Shown here one piece after another: positions 3,069 through 28,056 of a DNA stretch of 32,487 bases. Position 1 is the first letter of the stretch. Each line of letters begins with the position of its first letter. The position numbers and the translations under genes were made by a program. Below the pieces are notes generated by a model. That model searched no databases and had not been told where the DNA came from. It worked only from the letters and a program-made list of their open reading frames with translations. The stretch lies in NCBI GenBank assembly GCA_018716625.1, contig DVJQ01000065.1:1-32487 (forward strand), written 5' to 3'. The stretch is from Candidatus Galligastranaerophilus intestinavium (GTDB lineage Bacteria > Cyanobacteriota > Vampirovibrionia > Gastranaerophilales > Gastranaerophilaceae).

Positions 3069-4139
3069 TTAGACGGATAAAATTTCTTCCAAAGTTTCAT
3101 CTGTTGCCTCAATCCAACCTCTGTTTGTAAGTTTGTAGCCTATTTCCATATTTTTTGTTAAAGAATTATATTCAATTGCAACCGCGTATGGTGCATTATA
3201 TCTCATAACAATTACTTCGTCTGATTTTGTTATGCCTTGAGATTTTATTGAATTTTTTTTATGTAAAACAGGCAGACCGTCTTTGTATGATATGATATCG
3301 CTTGTTTTGGAATATTTTGGGGACGGTTGTTTAAAGTCTTTTTTGTAGGTGGTCGCTCTGCCTTCATCAAGCCAGAGTTCTTTATTTATTGTTTTTGAGC
3401 CGTCGGGATTTTCTTGGTAGCCTTCAGTGTATTTTCCTGATTCTTCATCTATAAATAAAATCTCTAAATCTTTTTTTACTGTTCCGTCTGCTCTTTGCTC
3501 GTATCCTTCGAGATATTGACTGATTTTGTTGTTTATAAATCTTGAAACAATTGAGTATTTTTTTGTTCCGTCGGGTTTATGTTCAGAGCCTTCAATGTAG
3601 TTTTTAACAGTGCCGTTGTCATGGTAATATATTTCTCTGCTGAATCTTATTGAGTCGTTGGGTAAAACATCTATGCCTTCTTGGTATAGTATTGGTTTGC
3701 CGTCAACAAACTTGGTTCTTGAGTGCAATCTGCCGTTTTTGGAAAATTCAAACATAGTTGCAAAGTTGTCTTTTTGCACTGTGATTTTTTTTATTACTTC
3801 ACCCTCAGGCGCAGTTTCATCTCCTGCTTCATAGAGTTCTTTTAATTCGTTATATATTTCAAGTGCCTCCTGTACATTTGGTTTTGAATTTTGACTTACC
3901 GTTTGTAACATTCCGCTTGCTTTTGTTATAAAGGCGTTTGCTTTTCTGTTTGCACTTTTACAGTCCCTTATGGCACAAGAAAGCTCCTGTGGCATTAATA
4001 CTTTTTGCAGGGTGCAAATTGCATTTGTCCTTGTGTTATTTAACGGGTTAGTGTTTTTTGGAGTTACATTTTTAGGTTTTTTGTCAGTATTTTTAAAATT
4101 TAAGTTGTTGTTAATTGTTCTAATCGGCAATATGCGCAT
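3069..4139 (-). CDS. Repeat-containing conserved protein, paralog of the protein at 21889-22875
   Basis: 356 residues, no recognised family. The N-terminus (MRILPIRTINNNLNFKN) fits a short leader pattern also seen in the protein at 21889. Residues about 1-45 are polar and low-complexity, 45-95 helical. From about 100 onward there are MORN-like units of 30-35 residues ending in EG and containing DGT: NGTVKNYIEGSEHKPDGTK, YLEGYEQRADGTVK, YTEGYQENPDGSK. The segment LKELYEAGDETAPEGEVIKK aligns with LEEAFDKGSKKAQDGTLLRK of the paralog. The ATG lies 4 nt after the upstream gene's TGA and its AAGGAT signal lies inside that gene's end, so translation is probably coupled. Function unknown; repeats suggest a binding or surface role. 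Confidence 0.85.
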   Translation of the reverse strand: MRILPIRTINNNLNFKNTDKKPKNVTPKNTNPLNNTRTNAICTLQKVLMPQELSCAIRDCKSANRKANAFITKASGMLQTVSQNSKPNVQEALEIYNELKELYEAGDETAPEGEVIKKITVQKDNFATMFEFSKNGRLHSRTKFVDGKPILYQEGIDVLPNDSIRFSREIYYHDNGTVKNYIEGSEHKPDGTKKYSIVSRFINNKISQYLEGYEQRADGTVKKDLEILFIDEESGKYTEGYQENPDGSKTINKELWLDEGRATTYKKDFKQPSPKYSKTSDIISYKDGLPVLHKKNSIKSQGITKSDEVIVMRYNAPYAVAIEYNSLTKNMEIGYKLTNRGWIEATDETLEEILSV

Positions 4140-5288: not shown

Positions 5289-6617
5289 TTGAGCGCACAA
5301 GGGGGTTTAGATAACATCTTTGATGAAAAAAAATGCGGTCAAATTTCAAGTGTTACAATGGAATTTGACGGTGAATTTTTGCCTAAAATTATTGAAGCGA
5401 CTCAAAATTTTTGGGAAGAAGAATTTGAATTTCGTGTTTTTGATGTAAACAATAACGAAAGAGTAAAAGAAGATTTATATTTGGAATACGACTCGTTTTT
5501 TATCAGTCAGGTGCCTTCAAAACACACTCCGCCCGTCACCATAAGACTTTCCGACGAGTTTATAAGGCTTATTTTGCACAATACATTTGGTTCAGACTTG
5601 CCCCTGTTTGAACTCAGCGACTTATCCGAACTTGAAATAAGAATACTAAACGGTTATTGCGATTTTATATACAAATCTTTTGCAAAATTGTTAACAGATG
5701 AGGACGAGCTAAATAAATTTGAACTTAAAAATAAAGAGGTTTACAATTTTGTAATTATAATTAAAAATAAAGACGAAAAAATTTCAAAAATTGTAATTAC
5801 ACTGCCCTCCTCAAGAATCAAAAGAAAAGAAATTCAAAAAGAGCAAAATTACAGTGATGATGAGTTTAAAAACATAAATGCATATGTTGATATCGAAGCG
5901 GGAAGTTCAAAAATCACGCTTAATGATTTGAAAAATATCTCACAAGGCGACATAATGCTGCTTGAGGACAGTTTTGTAAATAAAATGAAAATCATAACCG
6001 GAGAAAAAATAAGGGAATTTAAAATTAACCCTGACCCTGAACTTATGATTGAAATTGATGAAGATGAGCATGATATTGAGGGAGAGGAGAATACAAATAC
6101 AAATATGTGGGATGATATTCAAATAGAAGTTAATGCCCGTTTTAAAAAAATTAAAATGACTCTGGGCGAACTTAAACATATATCAAAAGGGCTTGTAATA
6201 GACCTTGGTTCTGTTTTTCATAATGAAATTTCGCTCCTTGTTGAAGAAAAAACCGTTGCAAAAGGCGAATTGGTAATTATAAATGACAAATACGCCGTTA
6301 AAATAAATGAAATAATAAGCGATATGCCAAAACAACCTCAAACTGAGCCAAAACAGCAACCTCAAGCACAAAATGCTCAACAGGAGGTGCAAAAACCTCA
6401 AGCGCAAAAAGCTCAAGGAGCTTCGCAAGCTCAGCCAAAACAACAAACACAAGCACAAAAACCTAAGGCTCAAAGACCTCAAGGAGCAGCTGCAGCACAA
6501 AGACCTCAGGCAACTGCACAAAGGCCGCAAGCTGCCGCACAAAGACCTCAGGCTGCAGCCAAAAAAGATGAGGTAGAGGAAGATTTTGATTATTCGGATT
6601 TTGAAGAAGATAAGTAA
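5289..6617 (+). CDS. Flagellar motor switch/SctQ-like protein with two SpoA (FliN-type) domains
   Basis: 442 residues. The N-terminal part (1-190) resembles the middle region of FliM/SctQ. Two SpoA domains follow: about 196-256 (AYVDIEAGSSKITLNDLKNI ...) and about 275-345 (IQIEVNARFKKIKMTLGELK ...), joined by an acidic linker (EIDEDEHDIEGEE). The tail (about 350-425) is low-complexity QRPQAAAQ repeats and ends acidic. FliM and FliN have one SpoA each; tandem SpoA in one chain is typical of injectisome SctQ. It should form the cytoplasmic C-ring or sorting platform below the export gate. The start is TTG at 5289 with AAGG at 5279-5282. It is the first gene of the fliO-P-Q-R operon. Whether it serves a flagellum or another export system is open. 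Confidence 0.85.
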   Translation: MSAQGGLDNIFDEKKCGQISSVTMEFDGEFLPKIIEATQNFWEEEFEFRVFDVNNNERVKEDLYLEYDSFFISQVPSKHTPPVTIRLSDEFIRLILHNTFGSDLPLFELSDLSELEIRILNGYCDFIYKSFAKLLTDEDELNKFELKNKEVYNFVIIIKNKDEKISKIVITLPSSRIKRKEIQKEQNYSDDEFKNINAYVDIEAGSSKITLNDLKNISQGDIMLLEDSFVNKMKIITGEKIREFKINPDPELMIEIDEDEHDIEGEENTNTNMWDDIQIEVNARFKKIKMTLGELKHISKGLVIDLGSVFHNEISLLVEEKTVAKGELVIINDKYAVKINEIISDMPKQPQTEPKQQPQAQNAQQEVQKPQAQKAQGASQAQPKQQTQAQKPKAQRPQGAAAAQRPQATAQRPQAAAQRPQAAAKKDEVEEDFDYSDFEEDK

Positions 6618-6628
6618 AAAGGAAAAAA

Positions 6629-7054
6629 ATGACAACACATATTGTAGCTTTTGTTTTTTACACACTTGCAATGCTTGGCGTTATGTTTATAGCGTTTAGC
6701 GTATATAAAAACGTGGTTTTGGGGCAAAATTCACATTCAACAAAATTAAAAATTGAAGATATGCTAAGGCTTAATCAAAGAAAATCTTTATACGTAATAA
6801 ATTATCAAGGTGAAAGATTTTTAATAGCCGGTGATAGTGACTCTACCACTCTTATTTCAAAACTTAACACCCAAGAAAAACAAAACAATAGTCAACAAAA
6901 TGTAGTGCAAATTCAAAAAGAGCAGCAATCACCTGCACAAGAAAGTTTTGAAACTCTTGAGGATAAACTTATTGAGCTAAAAAAACTTCATGGCTCAAAA
7001 AACGTTATGAGAACGATATTAAAAGAAATAAATTCAAACAAGGAAAGATACTAA
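6629..7054 (+). CDS. fliO: FliO-like flagellar export-gate assembly protein
   Basis: 141 residues. An N-terminal transmembrane helix (about 5-27) is followed by the FliO core: IEDMLRLNQRKSLYVINYQG, then ERFLIAGDSDSTTLISKL, matching the family's 'rrsl-lV--g-r-lLlG----it-L--L' pattern. After residue 85 there is a Gln-rich linker and a helical C-terminus. FliO is a chaperone that stabilises FliP oligomers during assembly of the FliPQR gate in the inner membrane; it has no injectisome counterpart, which argues for a flagellar origin. AAGGAA precedes the ATG; fliP starts 1 nt after its stop. Confidence 0.75.
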   Translation: MTTHIVAFVFYTLAMLGVMFIAFSVYKNVVLGQNSHSTKLKIEDMLRLNQRKSLYVINYQGERFLIAGDSDSTTLISKLNTQEKQNNSQQNVVQIQKEQQSPAQESFETLEDKLIELKKLHGSKNVMRTILKEINSNKERY

Positions 7055-7055
7055 A

Positions 7056-7694
7056 ATGGATGTACTTTTAAAAGACATAAATCCTGTTATACAGCTGCTT
7101 ATTGTGATGACTCTGTTCTCACTTTTGCCTTTTGTATTTTGCTGTATGACCTCTTTTTTAAGGTTTACAATTGTCTTTTCAATGTTAAAAACAGCCTTGG
7201 GTACTCAAAGTGTACCTCCTGCCATTGTTTTAATAGGTTTATCAATGATTTTAACATTTTATTCCATGTCGCCTGTTTTTGATCAGATGATAAAAGCCGG
7301 AGAGCCTGCTTATAAAAGTGGGAATATCGTGGAGTGTATTGCTCAGGGGTCAAAACCTCTCAAAGAATTTATGCTCAAACAAACACGCCAAAGTGATTTA
7401 GCGTTTTTTGTCGAAAAAACACGAAAAGAGCCGCCAAATACTCCTGATGAGCTTACCATGTGGGAAGTTGCGCCCGCTTATATCATAAGCGAGCTGAAAA
7501 CAGCCTTTGAAATAGGTTTTATAATTTTTGTACCTTTCATTGTGCTTGACCTTGTTGTGGCAAATATTTTACTTGCTTTAGGTATGTTTATGTTATCACC
7601 GACGATTATTTCTCTGCCGTTTAAGCTTTTAATATTTATTGCCGTTGACGGTTGGAGTTTAATTGTAAAAGGACTTGTGGAGAGCTTTAACTGA
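7056..7694 (+). CDS. fliP: Flagellar/type III export gate protein FliP
   Basis: 212 residues. Core subunit of the FliP5Q4R1 export gate in the inner membrane. Signature segments are MTSFLRFTIVFSMLKTALGT and SVPPAIVLIGLSMILTFYSM near the N-terminus, and VPFIVLDLVVANILLALGMF then SPTIISLPFKLLIFIAVDGW near the C-terminus. Four transmembrane segments and a central hydrophilic loop (about 78-145) are visible. It lacks the cleavable signal peptide of many flagellar FliPs and in length is closer to injectisome SctR. AAGGAAAG precedes the ATG. Its TGA overlaps the fliQ ATG. Confidence 0.96.
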   Translation: MDVLLKDINPVIQLLIVMTLFSLLPFVFCCMTSFLRFTIVFSMLKTALGTQSVPPAIVLIGLSMILTFYSMSPVFDQMIKAGEPAYKSGNIVECIAQGSKPLKEFMLKQTRQSDLAFFVEKTRKEPPNTPDELTMWEVAPAYIISELKTAFEIGFIIFVPFIVLDLVVANILLALGMFMLSPTIISLPFKLLIFIAVDGWSLIVKGLVESFN

Positions 7695-8185
7695 TGGAAA
7701 TAATGGTAGAATACCTTGCAAAAGGTTTTATGACAATGCTTATGATTTCGCTGCCCTGCGTACTTGTTGCAGCCTCAATAGGTCTTGTGGTAGGTATTTT
7801 GCAGGCAGTTACACAAGTACAGGAACAAACAATTGCCGCTGCGCCAAAAATTATTGCAGTATTTTTGACTATCATTATTCTTGGGATGTGGTATATTAAA
7901 TTATTGACGGAATTTGTTATAGAAGGCAGTGCAATTGCATTTAATGTATTGCCCCATAATGAAGAATACGTACTGGAATCTAACTATTACAAACACACAA
8001 GACCTTTTGCAAATGAGATGTATGATAAAGTTGATGGATCTCAGAAAGATTTGAAAGAAATTATGAAAAATCCGGGAAAACTCCCTTGGGTCGATAAAGC
8101 GGAAAAAAGCACATACGGCGCAGCAAAAAGGGGAGAAAACCCGACACCTAATTTTATAGAAAAGAAAAAAATAATGGGGAGGTAG
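7694..8185 (+). CDS. fliQ: Flagellar/type III export gate protein FliQ with C-terminal extension
   Basis: The first 90 residues are a normal FliQ: two transmembrane hairpin helices, with SLPCVLVAASIGLVVGILQA, then TQVQEQTIAAAPKIIAV. FliQ is usually about 90 residues; this one has 163. The extra 73 residues (from HNEEYVLESNYY) are hydrophilic, Lys/Glu-rich and end in KKKIMGR; I recognise no domain. The extension follows the second helix, so it would lie on the same side as the FliQ C-terminus. Start ATG at 7694 overlaps the fliP stop (TGATG); ATG at 7703 is an alternative. The reading frame is intact, so this is not a frameshift with a neighbour. Confidence 0.93.
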   Translation: MEIMVEYLAKGFMTMLMISLPCVLVAASIGLVVGILQAVTQVQEQTIAAAPKIIAVFLTIIILGMWYIKLLTEFVIEGSAIAFNVLPHNEEYVLESNYYKHTRPFANEMYDKVDGSQKDLKEIMKNPGKLPWVDKAEKSTYGAAKRGENPTPNFIEKKKIMGR

Positions 8186-8188
8186 ATT

Positions 8189-8572
8189 ATGAAAAAGACA
8201 CTTGCGATTTTAGGACTTATGTTATCCTTTGGCGCGGTTTGTGCTTATGAAATCGATGCCAACAGCATATTTCGCCAAGGTAACAGTGTAGGATTAAAGC
8301 CAAATTCAAGATATACAATTTCTTGTCCTTCAATTATCGAAAATGTTGAAAATGGTGAAAAAAGCAACATAAAATTTTTCTTTATGGATAACGAACCTTT
8401 TAAAACAGGCGACAGAGCTGCAAGTACTCTTGTGATAAGAACTTATGAGCCTTCAAATTCTTATTTTAAAGTCTTCACCCAAGACGGTAATACACAGGCG
8501 ATAAAATATAACGTAAATGAAAAATACAACAAAATGGGTGCAATTGTGGGCAACTGCAGAATTGAACCCTAA
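8189..8572 (+). CDS. Secreted protein of unknown function inside the export-gate operon
   Basis: 127 residues. A clear Sec signal peptide ends at residue 19 (MKKTLAILGLMLSFGAVCA, cleaved before YE). The mature 108 residues have no recognised domain; they contain two Cys (SCPS and GNCRIEP) that could form a disulfide and look beta-rich. GGGAGG lies just before the ATG, overlapping the fliQ stop, and the gene is followed 10 nt later by fliR. Its position suggests a periplasmic or outer-membrane partner of the export apparatus; this is inference from context only. Confidence 0.85.
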   Translation: MKKTLAILGLMLSFGAVCAYEIDANSIFRQGNSVGLKPNSRYTISCPSIIENVENGEKSNIKFFFMDNEPFKTGDRAASTLVIRTYEPSNSYFKVFTQDGNTQAIKYNVNEKYNKMGAIVGNCRIEP

Positions 8573-8582
8573 AAAATAACTT

Positions 8583-9362
8583 ATGGACTTATTTTTGGCA
8601 CAATTTGCAAAACTTTTTCCCGAGCTCAATCTTGCATTGGGCGCGGGTATTATGGTGTTTAGCAGACTCTTGGGGCTAATGCAATTTGCACCACCCTTTA
8701 ACAGAAAAGAAGTCCCCTCCCTTGTAAGGCTTTCAATGGCTCTTATTATAACAGTGATTGTCACTATGCTTATAAAACCCCAACCTATCCCTCCAAATAC
8801 TTCAATTATGATGGGAATACTTTTAAACTATGCTTTCGGGGCAATTTTGGGCTACATTGCAAACTGTATACTTGCTGCAATAAGTGCAGGCGGGGATATG
8901 ATAAATACTCAAATGGGACTTTCGTCTGCTATGGTTTTAGACCCGACAACCCGTTCGCAAACTTCTATTTTGGGCAATTATTTTACAATTTTAGGCTTGA
9001 TAATTTTTATAAGCGCAGGCGGAGCGTATTGGCTACTAAATGCTTTCATAAGGAGTTTTGATGTTTTTGGAATGTATCAGACAATCATTCCCTTGTCAAA
9101 AGTCATTAATATTGACTATCTGGTAGTTATTACCTCAAATGTACTTTATTTTGGCATGCAGCTTGCCGCTCCTGTTTTGCTTGCGACTTTGGGTCAGGAC
9201 ATAATCTTAGGTATAATTTCAAAAACAGCCCCGCAGGTAAACGTATTTCAGCTCAGCTTTTTGTTCAAGCCGGTTATGGGTGCGCTTATTTTAATTTGGA
9301 TTTTACCAATGCTAATAAACGTTATAACCGATTATATGACTTCTTATGCAAGTATTTTCTAA
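8583..9362 (+). CDS. fliR: Flagellar/type III export gate protein FliR
   Basis: 259 residues, normal length. Six to seven transmembrane segments; family positions are FSRLLGLMQFAPPFNRKEVP near the N-terminus, AGGDMINTQMGLSSAMVLDP in the middle, and LGQDIILGIISKTAPQVNVF near the C-terminus. It is the single FliR subunit that closes the FliP5Q4R1 gate. No Shine-Dalgarno precedes the ATG. flhB, which often follows or is fused to fliR, is not in the window: the next gene is convergent and only 5 nt away. Confidence 0.96.
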   Translation: MDLFLAQFAKLFPELNLALGAGIMVFSRLLGLMQFAPPFNRKEVPSLVRLSMALIITVIVTMLIKPQPIPPNTSIMMGILLNYAFGAILGYIANCILAAISAGGDMINTQMGLSSAMVLDPTTRSQTSILGNYFTILGLIIFISAGGAYWLLNAFIRSFDVFGMYQTIIPLSKVINIDYLVVITSNVLYFGMQLAAPVLLATLGQDIILGIISKTAPQVNVFQLSFLFKPVMGALILIWILPMLINVITDYMTSYASIF

Positions 9363-15942: not shown

Positions 15943-17331
15943 ATGAACTTTAAACAAGCACTTGACTATACAAATAAATTTTATAGACTTTTGAGAAAAA
16001 TGAATACTCAGGGCACATCATTGCCGGGGAAGTATTTAAGGAAATTTTATCCGAATTTTTTAAAGGAATCGCAAAATTATGTGACTTCTTACAAATTTGC
16101 AATAACGGGTACTAACGGAAAAACCACAACAGCAGGACTTTTGGCTCAAATTTTAAAAGAAGCTCAAAAAAGCGTTATACATAACGAACTGGGCGCAAAC
16201 ATGCCAAACGGTATTGCAACTGCTATTGCGCTTGGGTTATACAATAATTTTAAAGAAAAAGGCGAGGAGTCAAGCGTAGACAACCTTGTAATAGAGTCTG
16301 ACGAGGCTTATTTAAGGGAAGTTTTTGAAAACATTATATTTGATTATCTTTTAGTTACAAATCTTTTTCGCGATCAACTTGACAGATATGGCGAGCTTGA
16401 TATAACAAAAAAGAAAATTCAAGAAGGTATCAGAATAAATCCTGACTTAAAAATTATTCTAAATGCAGATGACCCGGGGCTTTATGAAATTGAAAAAAAT
16501 ATAAAAAATGACATGCTTTTGCCAAAAAAGAAAAGAAAAGTTTTGTATTTTGGCTTTGAGGATGTTGAGTTTTGTGATTTTGATGCACAATCAAACAGTC
16601 CCTCTGAGGTAATTTACTGTCCTGTATGCAAAAAACCGCTTAAATATACAAAAAGATTTTACTCTCAGCTTGGACTTTGGAGTTGTGCTTGTCGTACAAA
16701 AAGACCAAGACCTGATGTTTGTGCCAACGTTAAAGTGTTTAAAAATTATTCTATACTTAATGTCCGCTACGAGGGCAAAAGTATTATGTATAAATTAAAT
16801 CTTTCGGGTTTATATAATGCCTACAATGCTCTTGGTGCAATTGCATGTGCTTATATGGCGCAAATTGACAGAAAAATAATTGCTGCCGCACTTGATAATT
16901 ACAAGCCTGTTTTTGGAAGGTCGCAAAGAGAAGTTATACAAGGGAAAGAGCTGAAAGTTCACCTTATAAAAAATCCGACAGGTGCATGCGAGGTTTTAAG
17001 GAGCTTAAAAAATTCAAAAAATACAAAATTAATGATTGCAATAAATGACAAATATGCAGATGGCAGAGATGTTTCTTGGCTTTGGGATGTTGATTTTGAA
17101 ATATTGCAAAAGTTTGATAATAAAATATATGTTACAGGTACGCGAGCTGACGATATGGCACTAAGGCTTAAATATGCAGGTGTGAACTTGAGTCATCTTG
17201 TTATTGAAAATGACATTAAAAAGACTTTTAACTTTGCGCTAAAATCTGTTGAACCTGATGAGAAGCTTGTTATTTTGCCGACATATACAGCTTTGCTAAA
17301 ACTGGATAAAATTATTAAAAGCAAGCTCTAA
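15943..17331 (+). CDS. murT: Mur ligase MurT (lipid II isoglutaminyl synthase, large subunit)
   Basis: 462 residues. MurT with GatD amidates the alpha-carboxyl of Glu in lipid II. Motifs: TGTNGKTTTAGLLAQIL (ATP binding, about 53-70), HNELGANMPNG, ESDEAYLREVF, TNLFRDQLDRYGELD and LNADDPGL; a MurT-specific zinc-ribbon insert, CPVC (about 226) and CAC in SQLGLWSCACRTKRPRPDV; and the C-terminal DUF1727 (NPTGACEVLRSL, AINDKYADGRDVSWLWDVDF). These rule out MurC-F and FolC. gatD normally sits directly beside murT but is absent here. The stop is shared tail-to-tail with the FlhA-like gene (CTAA at 17328-17331). Confidence 0.93.
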   Translation: MNFKQALDYTNKFYRLLRKMNTQGTSLPGKYLRKFYPNFLKESQNYVTSYKFAITGTNGKTTTAGLLAQILKEAQKSVIHNELGANMPNGIATAIALGLYNNFKEKGEESSVDNLVIESDEAYLREVFENIIFDYLLVTNLFRDQLDRYGELDITKKKIQEGIRINPDLKIILNADDPGLYEIEKNIKNDMLLPKKKRKVLYFGFEDVEFCDFDAQSNSPSEVIYCPVCKKPLKYTKRFYSQLGLWSCACRTKRPRPDVCANVKVFKNYSILNVRYEGKSIMYKLNLSGLYNAYNALGAIACAYMAQIDRKIIAAALDNYKPVFGRSQREVIQGKELKVHLIKNPTGACEVLRSLKNSKNTKLMIAINDKYADGRDVSWLWDVDFEILQKFDNKIYVTGTRADDMALRLKYAGVNLSHLVIENDIKKTFNFALKSVEPDEKLVILPTYTALLKLDKIIKSKL

Positions 17332-18779
17332 ATTTGTCCTAAAATTTTCAGTTCAAATTCGCTTGAAATTTCTTCAGGACAAATTACTGTAATATCGGTG
17401 TAGATTTGCGATATTAAAACAAACAAAAGTTGCCTGTAGTGTTGTGGTGCAACAAGTACTACTTTTTGTTCATTTGAGAATATGTTTTTTAATTCTTTTT
17501 TAAATTTAGAAAACTTTGTGCCGTCTATTTTTACAACTCCGTCAGATTCTTCATAAGATTCATTTTGCAGCATTTGTATAATTTCTTCAGATACTTCATA
17601 TCCAAAAATTTGTTTATCTTCATTGGCACAGCTCCAACTAATTTGGTGGCAAAGTGCCGTTCTGAGCTTTTCCAACAAATCGGTTTTTGTTGAATCATCC
17701 GAGAAGTCGTTTATTTTTTCAAAAATAAACACAACGTCTTTTACGCTTACTCTTTCGCGAATTAAGCTGCAAAAAATGTATTTTAACTCAGAAACAGAGA
17801 TAAAATCACCCAATATTGAATCAATTAAAAATGAATTATGTTCAGATACAAGTTCTATATAGCGGTTCATGTCATTGTAGCTGAAAATCTCGTTTACATG
17901 AGTTATGGCATAATGTTTAAGATATTCTACAACGTATTCGCAAGGTGTTATTCCTTTTGCCCAAAAGTCCTTGCAGGCATTTTCCTCTATCCAAACAACT
18001 TTTCTGTTTGTAAGCGGGTCTTTTGTTTTTATTGAATTTTTCGGGTATTTTTCAAGATTTAATTCATCTTCAAAAAACATTACATGTCCTAAATAAGCCT
18101 TAGAGCTTGCAACAGGAACTGCATGTATTGATATTGTAAAAGCATTTTCTTCAAGCTCGGGATTTTCAACAAATTGAACTTTTGGGATAATATAGCCAAG
18201 CTCCGAAGTGAGTTCCTGACGAGCTTTTATTGTTTGAGCAAGCAGGTTTTGTTCACTTTGCCCGTTGTTTAAAAGATAAAGCTCCTCGCTTAAATTAATT
18301 GAAAGACGTTCTACCCCAAGGTTTTGAACCATTTTAGAAGGTGAGAGCAAACTTTTGAGTTGTTTTTTTAAATTGTTGAGTTTATCGATTTCTTTTGAAA
18401 TTTCTTCATTTAAAAATTCGCGCTCATCATCCTTTGCACTCTCTAAAAATTTCTTTATTTCTTCAATTTTTGCGCGCCTTTCGCGAATTTTCTTTTGAAT
18501 ATTTAAACACAATTCATAAGGCTGCTCTTTCGAATAGAGCATTTTTTCCATCTGAGTTTTAAAACCTAAAATGTCTTCAAACTCTGCCTCGTCATAGAAA
18601 TTTTCGACTTCTCTAACGAAAATGCAATTATAGACAAGCTTAGAGCCGTTATCAGCCTCGTAGATAGAATATAAATCCCAGCCTTCTTTTGTCATGGAAT
18701 TAAGAGTATTTTCTAATAGCGTGACTTCGTCACAAGGGCAAACTTTTATGGTAAATTCCTGACGCGTAGGTTTAAACAT
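17328..18779 (-). CDS. Soluble fusion protein: DUF4177-like domain, coiled coil, FlhA cytoplasmic domain
   Basis: 483 residues, no transmembrane segment. Residues 1-60 (ENTLNSMTKEGWDLYSIYE, then LVYNCIFVRE) resemble the DUF4177 fold. About 92-150 is a charged coiled coil (KKIRERRAKIEEIKKFLES ...). From about 150 to the end it matches the whole FlhA C-domain: ARQELTSELGYIIPKVQFVE, a degenerate VEVARG strand (AVPVASSKAYLG), RKVVWIEENACKDFWAKG, PCEYVVEYLKHYAITHVNEI, SVSELKYIFCSLIRERVSVK, LRTALCHQI, and the terminal KVVLVAPQHYRQLLFVLISQ with VICPEEI in place of VLSYNEI. FlhA normally has about 330 N-terminal residues with eight membrane helices; they are absent here and no broken frame explains it. 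A likely role is binding export chaperone-substrate complexes; this is inference. Confidence 0.8.
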   Translation of the reverse strand: MFKPTRQEFTIKVCPCDEVTLLENTLNSMTKEGWDLYSIYEADNGSKLVYNCIFVREVENFYDEAEFEDILGFKTQMEKMLYSKEQPYELCLNIQKKIRERRAKIEEIKKFLESAKDDEREFLNEEISKEIDKLNNLKKQLKSLLSPSKMVQNLGVERLSINLSEELYLLNNGQSEQNLLAQTIKARQELTSELGYIIPKVQFVENPELEENAFTISIHAVPVASSKAYLGHVMFFEDELNLEKYPKNSIKTKDPLTNRKVVWIEENACKDFWAKGITPCEYVVEYLKHYAITHVNEIFSYNDMNRYIELVSEHNSFLIDSILGDFISVSELKYIFCSLIRERVSVKDVVFIFEKINDFSDDSTKTDLLEKLRTALCHQISWSCANEDKQIFGYEVSEEIIQMLQNESYEESDGVVKIDGTKFSKFKKELKNIFSNEQKVVLVAPQHYRQLLFVLISQIYTDITVICPEEISSEFELKILGQI

Positions 18780-18800: not shown

Positions 18801-19136
18801 TTAAGCTTTTTGTTTATTGTCAGCTTTATTTTTTGATATTCTGTTTACAACAAAGTCAACCGCGCCACCTGCTACAAATCCTGCCATAGCACATATTAGC
18901 GCGGAAAACGTGGCAAATGAGGCTTTTCTTATGCTTTTATAATATTTTGAATGATTTTTTACAGCATCTTGAGTTGATTTAGTTAGCTTTTTAAGAAACT
19001 CGTCAGAGCGCATTGTTTTTCTGGCAGAGTATATGCCGTATGCTCCTGCTGCACTTGCAAGTGTTATTCTTCCTACTCTTGAAACTGTGTATTTGTTTCC
19101 CTTTGGCGTTGTCGCCTGAGTGCTTATAACTCTCAT
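18801..19136 (-). CDS. Small membrane protein of unknown function
   Basis: 111 residues. The first hydrophobic stretch is about 25-40 (ITLASAAGAYGIYSARK) and the second, stronger one is about 70-95 (ASFATFSALICAMAGFVAGG). The rest is basic and the C-terminus is Lys-rich (RISKNKADNKQKA). The N-terminus MRVISTQATTPKGN resembles short leaders seen on lineage-specific proteins. AAAAGGAAG lies before the ATG and a TATAAT-like box lies further upstream. It precedes the FlhA-like gene by 21 nt in the same direction, so a membrane anchor for that soluble protein is an attractive but untested idea. Confidence 0.7.
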   Translation of the reverse strand: MRVISTQATTPKGNKYTVSRVGRITLASAAGAYGIYSARKTMRSDEFLKKLTKSTQDAVKNHSKYYKSIRKASFATFSALICAMAGFVAGGAVDFVVNRISKNKADNKQKA

Positions 19137-21794: not shown

Positions 21795-21888
21795 TGAGCT
21801 TTTAGTTTAAAAATATTTGCGCAAAACTTTTCTTTTTTAGGTTTTGTACTTCTGCCAAAAGAAATATAAACCCATAGAGAGGAATGCT

Positions 21889-22875
21889 ATGCAAATATCA
21901 CAAGTTAGACCTTATAGCACCCAAAATATAGTGTTTGGTGCTTCATCACCTATAAATAAAATAAGTGCAAAAGTAAATGGTGCAGATACAAGAGTAGTTT
22001 CAAAATCTGAAGGTACAAACAGTATTAACGGATTGTTTTCAAGCGCAATTTTTGTATTAAATAATTACGCCGTTGTCGATTTATTTGTAAAATCCTGTGC
22101 TATTGATGCAAATAGGTTTCATAGCGAGGCTTTAAAAAAATATCCCGAGCTTGAAGAAGCTTTTGACAAAGGTAGCAAAAAAGCACAAGACGGTACTTTG
22201 TTAAGAAAAGTGCAATATGGCAGGTTTGGTTATGCCAGTGTAAGAGATTATTCTTCAAACGGGGTTGAAAAGCGACGTATTAATATTTTAAATTGCCAAC
22301 CTATTGAGTGTTTTGAAGACCCGACATTAGGCAAAGACTTTGTGAAATGGGACAAATCCTACGGCTATAATAACGCAAAGCCCTATACTTATAAAGAAGG
22401 TTATGTAGAACATCTCGACGGTACAAGCAGTTTTGACAAGGCTTTTTATTTTGATGGAGGCAGTTGTAGTGTGGTTAGCACAGGCAGCAGAAATTTGCCT
22501 AACGGTGAAAAGTTGGAATATTGTGAAAATATAGTTTTTAGTGATGATAAACCGGCAAAATATGAAAAAATTTATTTCAGATCTTCAAGCAAACAAGTAC
22601 AGGAAAGAACAACTGTTATATATGAAAACGGACTGCCGAAAACGTTTTCAATGTCACAAAACGGTTTTGTAAGAGAAATAACCTTTGAAAACGGTTTGCC
22701 TGCAAAGTACACATCTAAACAAAATTCTCTTTATGGCTGTCGTGCAGAGCTATCATTATCTTTGCCTAATATGCCGCTTGAGAGTGCAATAAAAGAACTG
22801 GAAAAAGAGCAGGCTAAAATTGAAGACGGTTGTAAATTATACGGTCAAAACAGTTACTTTGATTTTTTGTTATAG
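21889..22875 (+). CDS. Repeat-containing conserved protein, paralog of the protein at 3069-4139
   Basis: 328 residues. The start is ATG 21889 (MQISQVRPYSTQNIVFGASS): AGAGAGGA lies 6 nt upstream, so an in-frame ATG 45 nt earlier is less likely. The N-terminus fits the M-x-I ... N-x-x-F leader pattern. Residues about 85-150 align with the paralog (YPELEEAFDKGSKKAQDGTL). From about 160 there are degenerate units: YTYKEGYVEHLDGTSS, GSRNLPNGEKLEYCEN, YENGLPKTFSMSQNG and FENGLPAKYTSKQNS, similar to bacterial toxin-immunity or MORN-like strands. No signal peptide, no membrane segment. Function unknown. Ends before the large palindromic terminator at 22892. Confidence 0.85.
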   Translation: MQISQVRPYSTQNIVFGASSPINKISAKVNGADTRVVSKSEGTNSINGLFSSAIFVLNNYAVVDLFVKSCAIDANRFHSEALKKYPELEEAFDKGSKKAQDGTLLRKVQYGRFGYASVRDYSSNGVEKRRINILNCQPIECFEDPTLGKDFVKWDKSYGYNNAKPYTYKEGYVEHLDGTSSFDKAFYFDGGSCSVVSTGSRNLPNGEKLEYCENIVFSDDKPAKYEKIYFRSSSKQVQERTTVIYENGLPKTFSMSQNGFVREITFENGLPAKYTSKQNSLYGCRAELSLSLPNMPLESAIKELEKEQAKIEDGCKLYGQNSYFDFLL

Positions 22876-26113: not shown

Positions 26114-26242
26114 TTTTTTAAATGTATCTTTTGGACGAGCAGAGTTTGATTCTACAATTTCGTAGTACTCATTCTTGTTAAAATCAATACCCCACTTTTT
26201 TGTATTTAATTTTATTTTCTTCTTTTTCTTTTCTTTATTCAT
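26105..26242 (-). CDS. Small basic protein, 45 residues, coupled to the large gene upstream
   Basis: Starts at ATG 26242, which overlaps the TAA of the preceding gene (TAATG), and ends TAA at 26105. It encodes MNKEKKKKKIKLNTKKWGID, then FNKNEYYEIVESNSARPKDT and FKKLT. The N-terminus is strongly basic, the rest mixed; no known family. The 1-nt stop/start overlap and position between two same-strand genes support a real, translationally coupled gene. Possible roles (nucleic-acid binding, regulator of the neighbour) are guesses. Confidence 0.6.
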   Translation of the reverse strand: MNKEKKKKKIKLNTKKWGIDFNKNEYYEIVESNSARPKDTFKKLT

Positions 26243-28056
26243 TACATTTCAAGTTCTAAACGCATAGAAGTATTTGTTACTTTTATAAGTAGTTTAAATT
26301 TATCAATTTTAACAATGAAAAATGTTTTATCAATCTGTTTTTCCGAAATTCTATATTTTATATCGTAGTTTGAAATAAATTCCCTAAATTGATAGAGTAA
26401 AAATACATCATCATGGATGTAGCCAAAAAGGGCTTTTACGCCTCGGGTTTCTATTATCATAAAACCGCGCATTGGAGCTATTTCAACAGATGAAATAACT
26501 TGAGGTTCTTCGTATTGTTCATCTTCCTTTACAGGCTCGGGTGCTTTTTGCTGTTCGTTTTGTTCCATTAAGTCTTTAAATTCATCTTTAAATGCTTGCG
26601 CCTCTTGCTCGGCTTTGTTTGATAATTCTTCTTCCAGTCCTGTTTTATATGTTTCGTTTATTTCCTTTGTAAGATTTTCAATACTTGATTTTTTTTCATT
26701 TTCAGATGGTTGCTCGCAGTTCATGGTCTTTGATGTTCCTTTTTTCTTACTTTTACTTATGGCAATAAGCAAAATAATTCCTATTAGTGCTATTGCAAGT
26801 GTTATAAAAAGAGTAAAATTGTCACAAATTACATAATAATATGGTTTAAAAAATGAAAGTTTATTTTTTATAATTTTAGTATATGATTTTTGGTTTATTT
26901 TTTCTGAAATTTCAGGTATTTTTTCTATGTCCTGTGGGTTTACGATATCTTGCGTGACAACATTTTCAGTGTTTATATCTTGCGGAGCCTTATTGATATC
27001 GGACTCCGTTTGTGACTTTTTTTCTTCACTACTGCCTTGCCCTTGTTTTCTATAGTACGCTTGAGCTGCTTCTTGTGAAACTTGAAGGTTGTTAGAGTTA
27101 GTTTTAGAGGTTTCTTGTGTATTTTGTTGCGCCTCTTGTTGTGCTTTCAGTTGAGCTTGTCTTTGCGCCTCTTGCTGCGCTTTTAGTTGCGCTTGACGTT
27201 GCGCCTCAGCTTTTTGTGCAGCCTCACGAGCCTGTTGAGCCTTAATTTGAGCTTGACGTTGCGCCTCTTGCTGTGCTTTCAGTTGAGCTTGTCTTTGCGC
27301 CTCAGCTTTTTGTGCAGCCTCACGAGCTTGCTGCGCTTTTAGTTGCGCTTGTCTTTGCGCTTCCTGCTGCGCTTTCAACTGTGCCTCTTTTTGTGCTTGA
27401 GCGCGTGCCTGTGCCTGTCTTTGTGCCTCTTGCTGAGCCTTTAGTTGCGCTTGACGTTGTGCCTCTTGCTGTGCTTTCAGTTGAGCTTGTCTTTGAGCCT
27501 CAGCTTTTTGTGCAGCCTCACGAGCTTGCTGCGCTTTCAGTTGAGCTTGTCTTTGCGCTTCCTGCTGCGCCTTAATTTGCGCTTGACGTTGTGCTTGTTC
27601 ATTTGATGTTTGGTTTTTATTAAAAGCACTGTCAAGCTTTGCAAGGTCTTTTGCATTAATGCTTGGTGCTACTGATTTTGTTGAGCTGTTTAGTTGTGTT
27701 TTAATGTTCAACGGTTTTGATGTATAAATGCTGATTTTTGTGTAACCGTTGTTTAAGTCTTGTCCGGCATAGGGGAAAAGTTTAACCTCTGTGCTTTTTA
27801 TGTCACCAAAAGGTGCAACAGAGCCCACCGAGTGGAAAGTTTCGGGTAATAGAATGTAATAGCTTGTATTTGTCTTTTTAATTACTTTGATAGGTTCGCC
27901 GTAAGGTTTTTGTGTAAATAGTCTGATATTGTAGCTGTCATTGCCTGTTTTAACATAATCAACTTTTAAAAGACTGTTTTTAAAGTCGCTTTCAATTGCA
28001 AAAGCGCACAAGTTCAGTGTTACTATCCCCAATAATATTAAAAGAAATTTTTTCAT
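26242..28056 (-). CDS. Membrane protein: AMIN-like domain, QAQ-rich periplasmic arm, one TM, cytoplasmic domain
   Basis: 604 residues. A signal peptide (about 1-20, ends CAFA) is followed by an AMIN-like beta domain (about 24-128: SYNIRLFTQKPYGEPIKVIK). Residues 150-330 are Ala/Gln/Arg-rich repeats (QAQLKAQQEAQRQ; three copies of AREAAQKAEAQRQAQLKAQQ), an expected long helix or coiled coil. After a linker comes one transmembrane helix (about 411-434), then an acidic coil and a conserved-looking C-terminal domain (about 510-604, ending TSMRLELEM). The order (periplasmic head, arm, TM, cytoplasmic domain) recalls FimV-like pilus-assembly proteins. The adjacent prepilin supports but does not prove this. 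AAAGGG lies upstream. Confidence 0.8.
   Translation of the reverse strand: MKKFLLILLGIVTLNLCAFAIESDFKNSLLKVDYVKTGNDSYNIRLFTQKPYGEPIKVIKKTNTSYYILLPETFHSVGSVAPFGDIKSTEVKLFPYAGQDLNNGYTKISIYTSKPLNIKTQLNSSTKSVAPSINAKDLAKLDSAFNKNQTSNEQAQRQAQIKAQQEAQRQAQLKAQQAREAAQKAEAQRQAQLKAQQEAQRQAQLKAQQEAQRQAQARAQAQKEAQLKAQQEAQRQAQLKAQQAREAAQKAEAQRQAQLKAQQEAQRQAQIKAQQAREAAQKAEAQRQAQLKAQQEAQRQAQLKAQQEAQQNTQETSKTNSNNLQVSQEAAQAYYRKQGQGSSEEKKSQTESDINKAPQDINTENVVTQDIVNPQDIEKIPEISEKINQKSYTKIIKNKLSFFKPYYYVICDNFTLFITLAIALIGIILLIAISKSKKKGTSKTMNCEQPSENEKKSSIENLTKEINETYKTGLEEELSNKAEQEAQAFKDEFKDLMEQNEQQKAPEPVKEDEQYEEPQVISSVEIAPMRGFMIIETRGVKALFGYIHDDVFLLYQFREFISNYDIKYRISEKQIDKTFFIVKIDKFKLLIKVTNTSMRLELEM
27116..27594 (-). repeat. 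Low-complexity coding repeat (QAQ/AREAAQKAE units)
   Basis: Tandem degenerate DNA repeats encode the Ala/Gln-rich arm of the 26242-28056 protein. The three larger units carry near-identical DNA (the stretches around 27200, 27300 and 27500), so unequal recombination could change arm length. Confidence 0.8.

Follow-up and report, generated by a model that had tools for sequence, protein, structure and literature searches.

A soluble paralogue of the FlhA cytoplasmic domain conserved across the Gastranaerophilales and its possible place in a flagellar-type export apparatus

The window analysed here is the whole of a 32,487-nucleotide stretch, contig DVJQ01000065.1 (assembly GCA_018716625.1) of Candidatus Galligastranaerophilus intestinavium. 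Near its middle lies the gene for a soluble FlhA cytoplasmic-domain protein, termed sFlhAC, whose parts and hydrophobic neighbour are as follows.

17328..18779, minus strand: sFlhAC gene, 483 residues, ATG start
17331..18341, minus strand: FlhA_C domain, D1 to D4, residues 147-483 (Foldseek, PDB profile search)
18348..18521, minus strand: helical hairpin, residues 87-144, which replaces the FlhA linker (AlphaFold2; conserved)
18603..18767, minus strand: N-terminal beta-alpha-beta-beta domain, DUF4177-like, residues 5-59 (AlphaFold2, pLDDT about 80-95)
18801..19136, minus strand: 111-residue hydrophobic protein, 21 bp upstream of sFlhAC (no Pfam match)

The open reading frame reported in a first-pass annotation is real and encodes, as stated there, a protein of 483 residues that lacks transmembrane helices (the highest 19-residue hydropathy is 1.45); the frame lies on the minus strand, and the plus strand across the same positions carries many stop codons. 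Residues 133-475 match positions 321-656 of the 657-position Pfam FHIPEP model (PF00771, E=3.7e-46), which is the C-terminal half of the model only, and the match to NCBIfam TIGR01398 FlhA (E=1.7e-45) falls far under the full-length cut-off. The best PDB sequence match is B. subtilis FlhA_C (3mix, E=2.6e-22; E=5e-42 with the family profile). An AlphaFold2 model was built with 44 family members (mean pLDDT 80.5), and in a Foldseek comparison with the PDB its best match is FlhA_C entry 6ch1 (E=1.9e-21; TM-score normalized by target length, 0.80), closely followed by SctV_C entries. The FlhA_C domain originally recognized by eye is thus supported by structure prediction and by significant matches in both types of search. 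A frameshift that would have separated the gene from an FlhA membrane domain is excluded, since the protein lacks a transmembrane helix and tblastn with the two full-length FlhAs of the genome (FlhA1 and FlhA2, see below) yields no hit to the FlhA membrane part anywhere in the window.

Ahead of FlhA_C, a DUF4177-like domain and a coiled coil had been described. For the former, a beta-alpha-beta-beta unit is predicted and 12 of 23 family members match DUF4177 (PF13783) at E up to 1 (best 0.0034); the window protein itself is unmatched, and a PDB fold search with the domain gives no significant match (best E=0.03). The label "DUF4177-like" is therefore kept as plausible. The supposed coiled coil is instead predicted to be a hairpin of two helices (residues 87-114 and 117-144), in which P87, K97, I98, K109, R120, L123, N124, L137 and L141 are invariant. 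A role for this hairpin as a FliJ mimic was considered and dropped, as no homology is detectable (hhalign probability 0.3%).

The surroundings of the gene are variable. In most genera sFlhAC lies outside flagellar operons, and no partner gene is conserved throughout the order (95 loci); its neighbours differ by clade and include ClpP-like, PSP1/RicT-like and other genes (names assigned by eye). The 111-residue hydrophobic protein, which had been suggested as a membrane anchor, adjoins sFlhAC in 10 of the 95 loci only and is ruled out as a conserved anchor. In genomes G040 and G045, sFlhAC is found directly upstream of fliJ-fliK-flgD-flgE, with the FlhA2 operon about 15 kb away, and in G023 and the window the distance to fliN-O-P-Q-R is 5-8 kb. 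At its 3' end in the window, the gene overlaps a convergent Mur-ligase-like gene (15943-17331) by 4 bp (17328-17331). Elsewhere in the window, a 604-residue protein (26242-28056) carries long Ala/Gln-rich tandem repeats (KAQQEAQRQAQL), and an open reading frame on the strand opposite to it (27273-27575) is probably spurious. The proteins encoded at 3069-4139 and 21844-22875 resemble each other in their "FKN/FGA"-type N-terminal motifs and DGT-rich repeats and are possibly paralogues of a lineage-specific family.

To define the spread of sFlhAC, related genomes were compared, nearly all of which are MAGs, in which an absence is weaker than a presence. Of 57 relatives in the Gastranaerophilales, an order of non-photosynthetic bacteria related to the cyanobacteria, 54 have the protein, and all seven families sampled are represented. 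Identities across these families are mostly 35-45%, a conservation well past what chance would give. Among 289 genomes sampled from the class, all listed genomes of the order except G016 match sFlhAC strongly. The other families have full-length FlhAs only, except for an FlhA_C piece in G085 and broken pieces where contigs end. The named matches are Candidatus Gastranaerophilales MAGs (class Melainabacteria/Vampirovibrionia), with one record labelled Heliobacteriaceae. The dN/dS ratio is 0.036 to the nearest relative, 0.036-0.08 to the nearest relatives as a group and 0.036-0.11 overall, and no stops interrupt the gene; by these measures, sFlhAC is under purifying selection and is no pseudogene. 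It is carried by 42 of 43 flagellin-positive and 12 of 14 flagellin-negative genomes, a distribution that shows, at the level of gene content, that its retention is independent of flagellin. No earlier description of sFlhAC was found in the open-licence literature.

The genome of the window contains three FHIPEP genes: sFlhAC and two full-length FlhAs, which were returned by the genome search proposed with the first-pass annotation. The FlhA1 gene (contig C71) adjoins flhB, fliR, fliQ and fliP, and the FlhA2 gene (contig C22) comes after SLT-fliE-fliF, a protein in the fliG position and fliH. Across the 57 genomes of the order, FlhA1 is found in 41 of 43 flagellin-positive and 0 of 14 flagellin-negative genomes (Fisher p=1.6e-11), and identical counts against flagellin are obtained for the FliG motor domain (FliG_C). 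FlhA2, with an intact cytoplasmic domain, is found in 53 of the 57, the four genomes without it being 75-88% complete. All 14 flagellin-less relatives keep FlhA2, and in none of them is flagellin (PF00669) or the FliG motor domain (PF01706) present. FlhA2 is part of a flagellar-type set, here called system B, that comprises the rod, FliF/H/I/J/K, FliPQR, FlhA2 and FlhB2. In flagellin-less genomes, its genes encode FlgB/C/F-G, FliE, FliF, FliH, FlhA2, FliI, FliJ, FliK, an FlgE-like protein and FlhB2, and the gene order fliE-fliF-G'-fliH-flhA2 is kept without flagellin. Rod genes in the arrangement FlgF/G-F/G-B-C are seen in G020, G024 and G016; these genomes and G000 have FlgB and FlgC proteins belonging to system B, and FliE lies within the FlhA2 operon. 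The fliJ-fliK-flgE-like genes are found in G020 and G024 and the fliN-O-P-Q-R cluster in flagellin-less G023; flagellin-less G020 was read over about 1.2 Mb of 1.8 Mb, and absences there are partial. FlhB was found in all genomes searched for it. A single FliI is found in each of 17 genomes searched (flagellin-less or of the same genera) versus two in flagellated G000, G039 and G040. Loci of system B include G000:C22 (L034), G000:C13 (L224), L036-L037, L157, L218 and L313-L314. The protein in the fliG position (L037:12872-13831, L295:12232-13248) does not match FliG significantly (lowest E=0.09, to FliG_C) and is possibly FliG minus the torque domain. Judged by these comparisons, system B consists of paralogous genes of its own and is not what flagellar system A left over. 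The survival of system B even without flagellin or a motor gene suggests that it does something other than swimming.

The window itself holds a run of such genes at lower coordinates than sFlhAC.

5289..6617, plus strand: FliN/SctQ-like C-ring protein, system B (FliMN_C E=1.3e-20; start could be 5358)
6629..7054, plus strand: FliO, system B (Pfam FliO E=1e-7)
7056..7694, plus strand: FliP, system B gate (Pfam FliP E=4.5e-68)
7694..8185, plus strand: FliQ, system B gate (Bac_export_3 E=6e-21, residues 5-75 of 163)
8583..9362, plus strand: FliR, system B gate (Bac_export_1 E=3.2e-49)

The cluster of the FliN/SctQ-like gene is the same as that in G023. Past its Pfam domain, FliQ continues for about 85 further residues at the C terminus, and a 127-residue protein with a signal-peptide-like start (8189-8572) is encoded between fliQ and fliR. 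Because flagellin-less genomes keep system B, including fliN-O-P-Q-R in G023, the FliPQR of the window are assigned to it. Since sFlhAC and these FliPQR both belong to the set kept by flagellin-less relatives, the two are placed in the same apparatus, in agreement with the link to the gate 8 kb away drawn in the first-pass annotation. Two genomes, G016 (98% complete) and G017 (93%), keep FlhA2 and other system B genes without sFlhAC, from which it follows that sFlhAC is non-essential to system B and that its role would be modulatory.

In a maximum-likelihood tree of FlhA_C, sFlhAC forms a single clade (SH-aLRT 100) that joins FlhA2 and a group of fusion proteins from G027 and G253 (SH-aLRT 92), apart from FlhA1 and Salmonella FlhA. 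The branch is long (2.2 changes per site) and the composition uneven, so its exact joint is uncertain. The tree nonetheless shows sFlhAC to be, by its placement, a soluble paralogue of the FlhA2 cytoplasmic domain with a single origin near FlhA2, its nearest relative. The fold, the D1-D4 order, the D3 motif, R391 and D456 are common to sFlhAC, FlhA_C and the SctV_C of injectisomes. In contrast to FlhA, sFlhAC has the DUF4177-like domain and hairpin where the membrane part would be. In FlhA, the chaperone dimple is formed by D456/F459/T490 (Salmonella numbering; PMC8166844), Gly368 of the GYXLI motif drives the open-close motion (PMC9431611), and the ring is stabilized by binding of the linker to D1 and D3 of the adjacent subunit (PMC8166844). 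These sites were counted over 100 sFlhAC and 29 FlhA2 sequences. R391 (100/100) and D456 (99/100) are kept in sFlhAC, whereas the hinge Gly368 is replaced by Ser in 98/100, F459 by Thr or Ser in 96/100 and T490 mostly by charged or polar residues (R/E/K/N). Unlike sFlhAC, FlhA2, which is 17-37% identical to it by domain, keeps the membrane part, the hinge Gly (29/29) and the dimple (Y/F 29/29, T 25/29). Mean identity within sFlhAC is highest in D3 (64%) and lowest in D4 (37%), for the D1-D4 limits adopted here. As read from these alignments, the counts show that sFlhAC has lost the chaperone-binding dimple and the Gly368 hinge and has retained D1 and D3.

Additional detached FlhA_C proteins were found in several genera, in unrelated neighbourhoods, by whole-genome searches covering this class. 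A 593-residue protein (L228:9042-10823 in G027; L278:383-2164 in G253) has two hydrophobic segments followed by FlhA_C, and its N-terminal part resembles, by eye, the fliG-position protein of system B; it is a second detached FlhA_C, apparently anchored in the membrane. G273 and G242 carry detached FlhA_C proteins of about 420 residues with hydrophobic N-termini. Smaller versions of 210-335 residues (L260-L272, L276) are scattered singly in several genera, with several in G216; their matches cover model positions 300-404 and 453-552, which correspond to D1 and D3 without D2 and D4, and some have a hydrophobic N-terminus. In G085, from another family of the class, a 289-residue FlhA_C-like piece (L210:6998-7867) lies directly downstream of full-length FlhA2 and could be an independent duplication. 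Weak FlhA_C pieces in G059 and G060 were discarded as detached domains, as their position at the ends of contigs marks them as probable fragments of broken genes.

The reading preferred here, with a probability of about 0.5, is that sFlhAC serves the FlhA2 ring of system B as an accessory subunit, either by joining it or by capping it. It is favoured because the best-kept domains, D1 and D3, carry the ring contacts of FlhA, whereas the lost features serve chaperone docking and the open-close motion; a role in subunit contact is preferred mainly because D1 and D3 are repeatedly retained in detached FlhA_C proteins. In this proposal, sFlhAC would insert into, stack under or cap the FlhA2_C nonamer, with its N-terminal domain and hairpin exposed to the cytoplasm. 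From there, it would act in recruiting or gating not filament-type chaperones but FliHIJ, early (rod-type) cargo or cargo specific to system B. The co-occurrence of sFlhAC with system B is weakly informative here because almost every genome of the order has system B. The first-pass annotation had instead suggested a decoy, a regulator or a substitute docking platform. A chaperone platform, a decoy or an FlhA substitute is unlikely. As a substitute, sFlhAC would take the place of the FlhA_C ring beneath the window's FliPQR gate, and it does have all four FlhA_C domains; this idea is nevertheless very improbable, given that full-length FlhA2 for this apparatus is present in the genome, as it is in all but four, incomplete, genomes of the order, that sFlhAC is without the dimple and hinge Gly, and that the presumed anchor is not conserved. 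Acting as a soluble negative regulator, sFlhAC would be largely free in the cell, assemble through D1/D3 into dimers or a ring of its own, and keep FlhA2_C, FliJ or substrates away from the gate by titration, until released by a signal that its N-terminal domain senses. Its solubility, the missing anchor, the additional N-terminal domain, the lost hinge and the tolerated loss of the gene in some lineages fit such a regulator, which is judged a minor prospect; a decoy for chaperones in particular is unlikely because the pocket is gone in 96 of 100 orthologues.

The long branch also allows for neofunctionalization away from the gate, with no role in type III export. In keeping with this view are the mostly solitary genes, the new N-terminal domain and the unrelated neighbourhoods of the other detached FlhA_C proteins. 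It is judged an equally minor prospect, as the best-conserved region, D3, is common to FlhA2, sFlhAC is kept with few losses wherever system B is, and it adjoins fliJ-fliK-flgD-flgE in one family. A different history has been drawn for the flagellar genes of this group: the partial sets were taken as flagella being lost (PMC4040986), and MEL.A1, without filament and rings, was taken as a case of genome reduction (PMC3787301). If that history held for sFlhAC, it would be a remnant of a decaying flagellum, which is hardly credible; such an origin is contradicted by purifying selection on a gene without stops that is fixed over seven families, and the retained genes are not what system A would have left behind. 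The "MEL-COG" list of PMC3787301 (Di Rienzi 2013) contains 13 shared flagellar genes, two flhA entries among them, and these match system B. The second entry is probably sFlhAC; a membrane-less FlhA is not mentioned in the sections of that paper drawn on here.

Like system B, the non-flagellar T3SSs and the Myxococcales variant (PMC3459982) have a flagellum-related export apparatus, and system B can be without flagellin and motor genes. In contrast to non-flagellar T3SSs, which are without FlgB, FlgC, FliE and FlgE/F/G-like proteins (PMC3459982), system B has all of these. It differs from a motility flagellum in that flagellin and the FliG motor domain are absent in the 14 relatives noted above. 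A tentative further proposal is an independent exaptation of the flagellum, in which a non-motile, filament-less, rod-type secretion organelle found throughout the order would have a gate with a second, soluble FlhA_C ring made of sFlhAC and, in some genera, exchangeable detached FlhA_C modules (D1+D3 minis and transmembrane-anchored fusions) for gating or docking.

The usual view of FlhA_C is of a fixed lower ring belonging to one membrane protein. In the Gastranaerophilales, the domain has been freed, fixed across the order and diversified, which provides natural separation-of-function material with the ring domains kept and the chaperone pocket removed. The results indicate that, in many gut members of the order, the "incomplete flagella" constitute a dedicated second export apparatus. 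If true, this would alter views of secretion and host contact in these little-studied gut bacteria.
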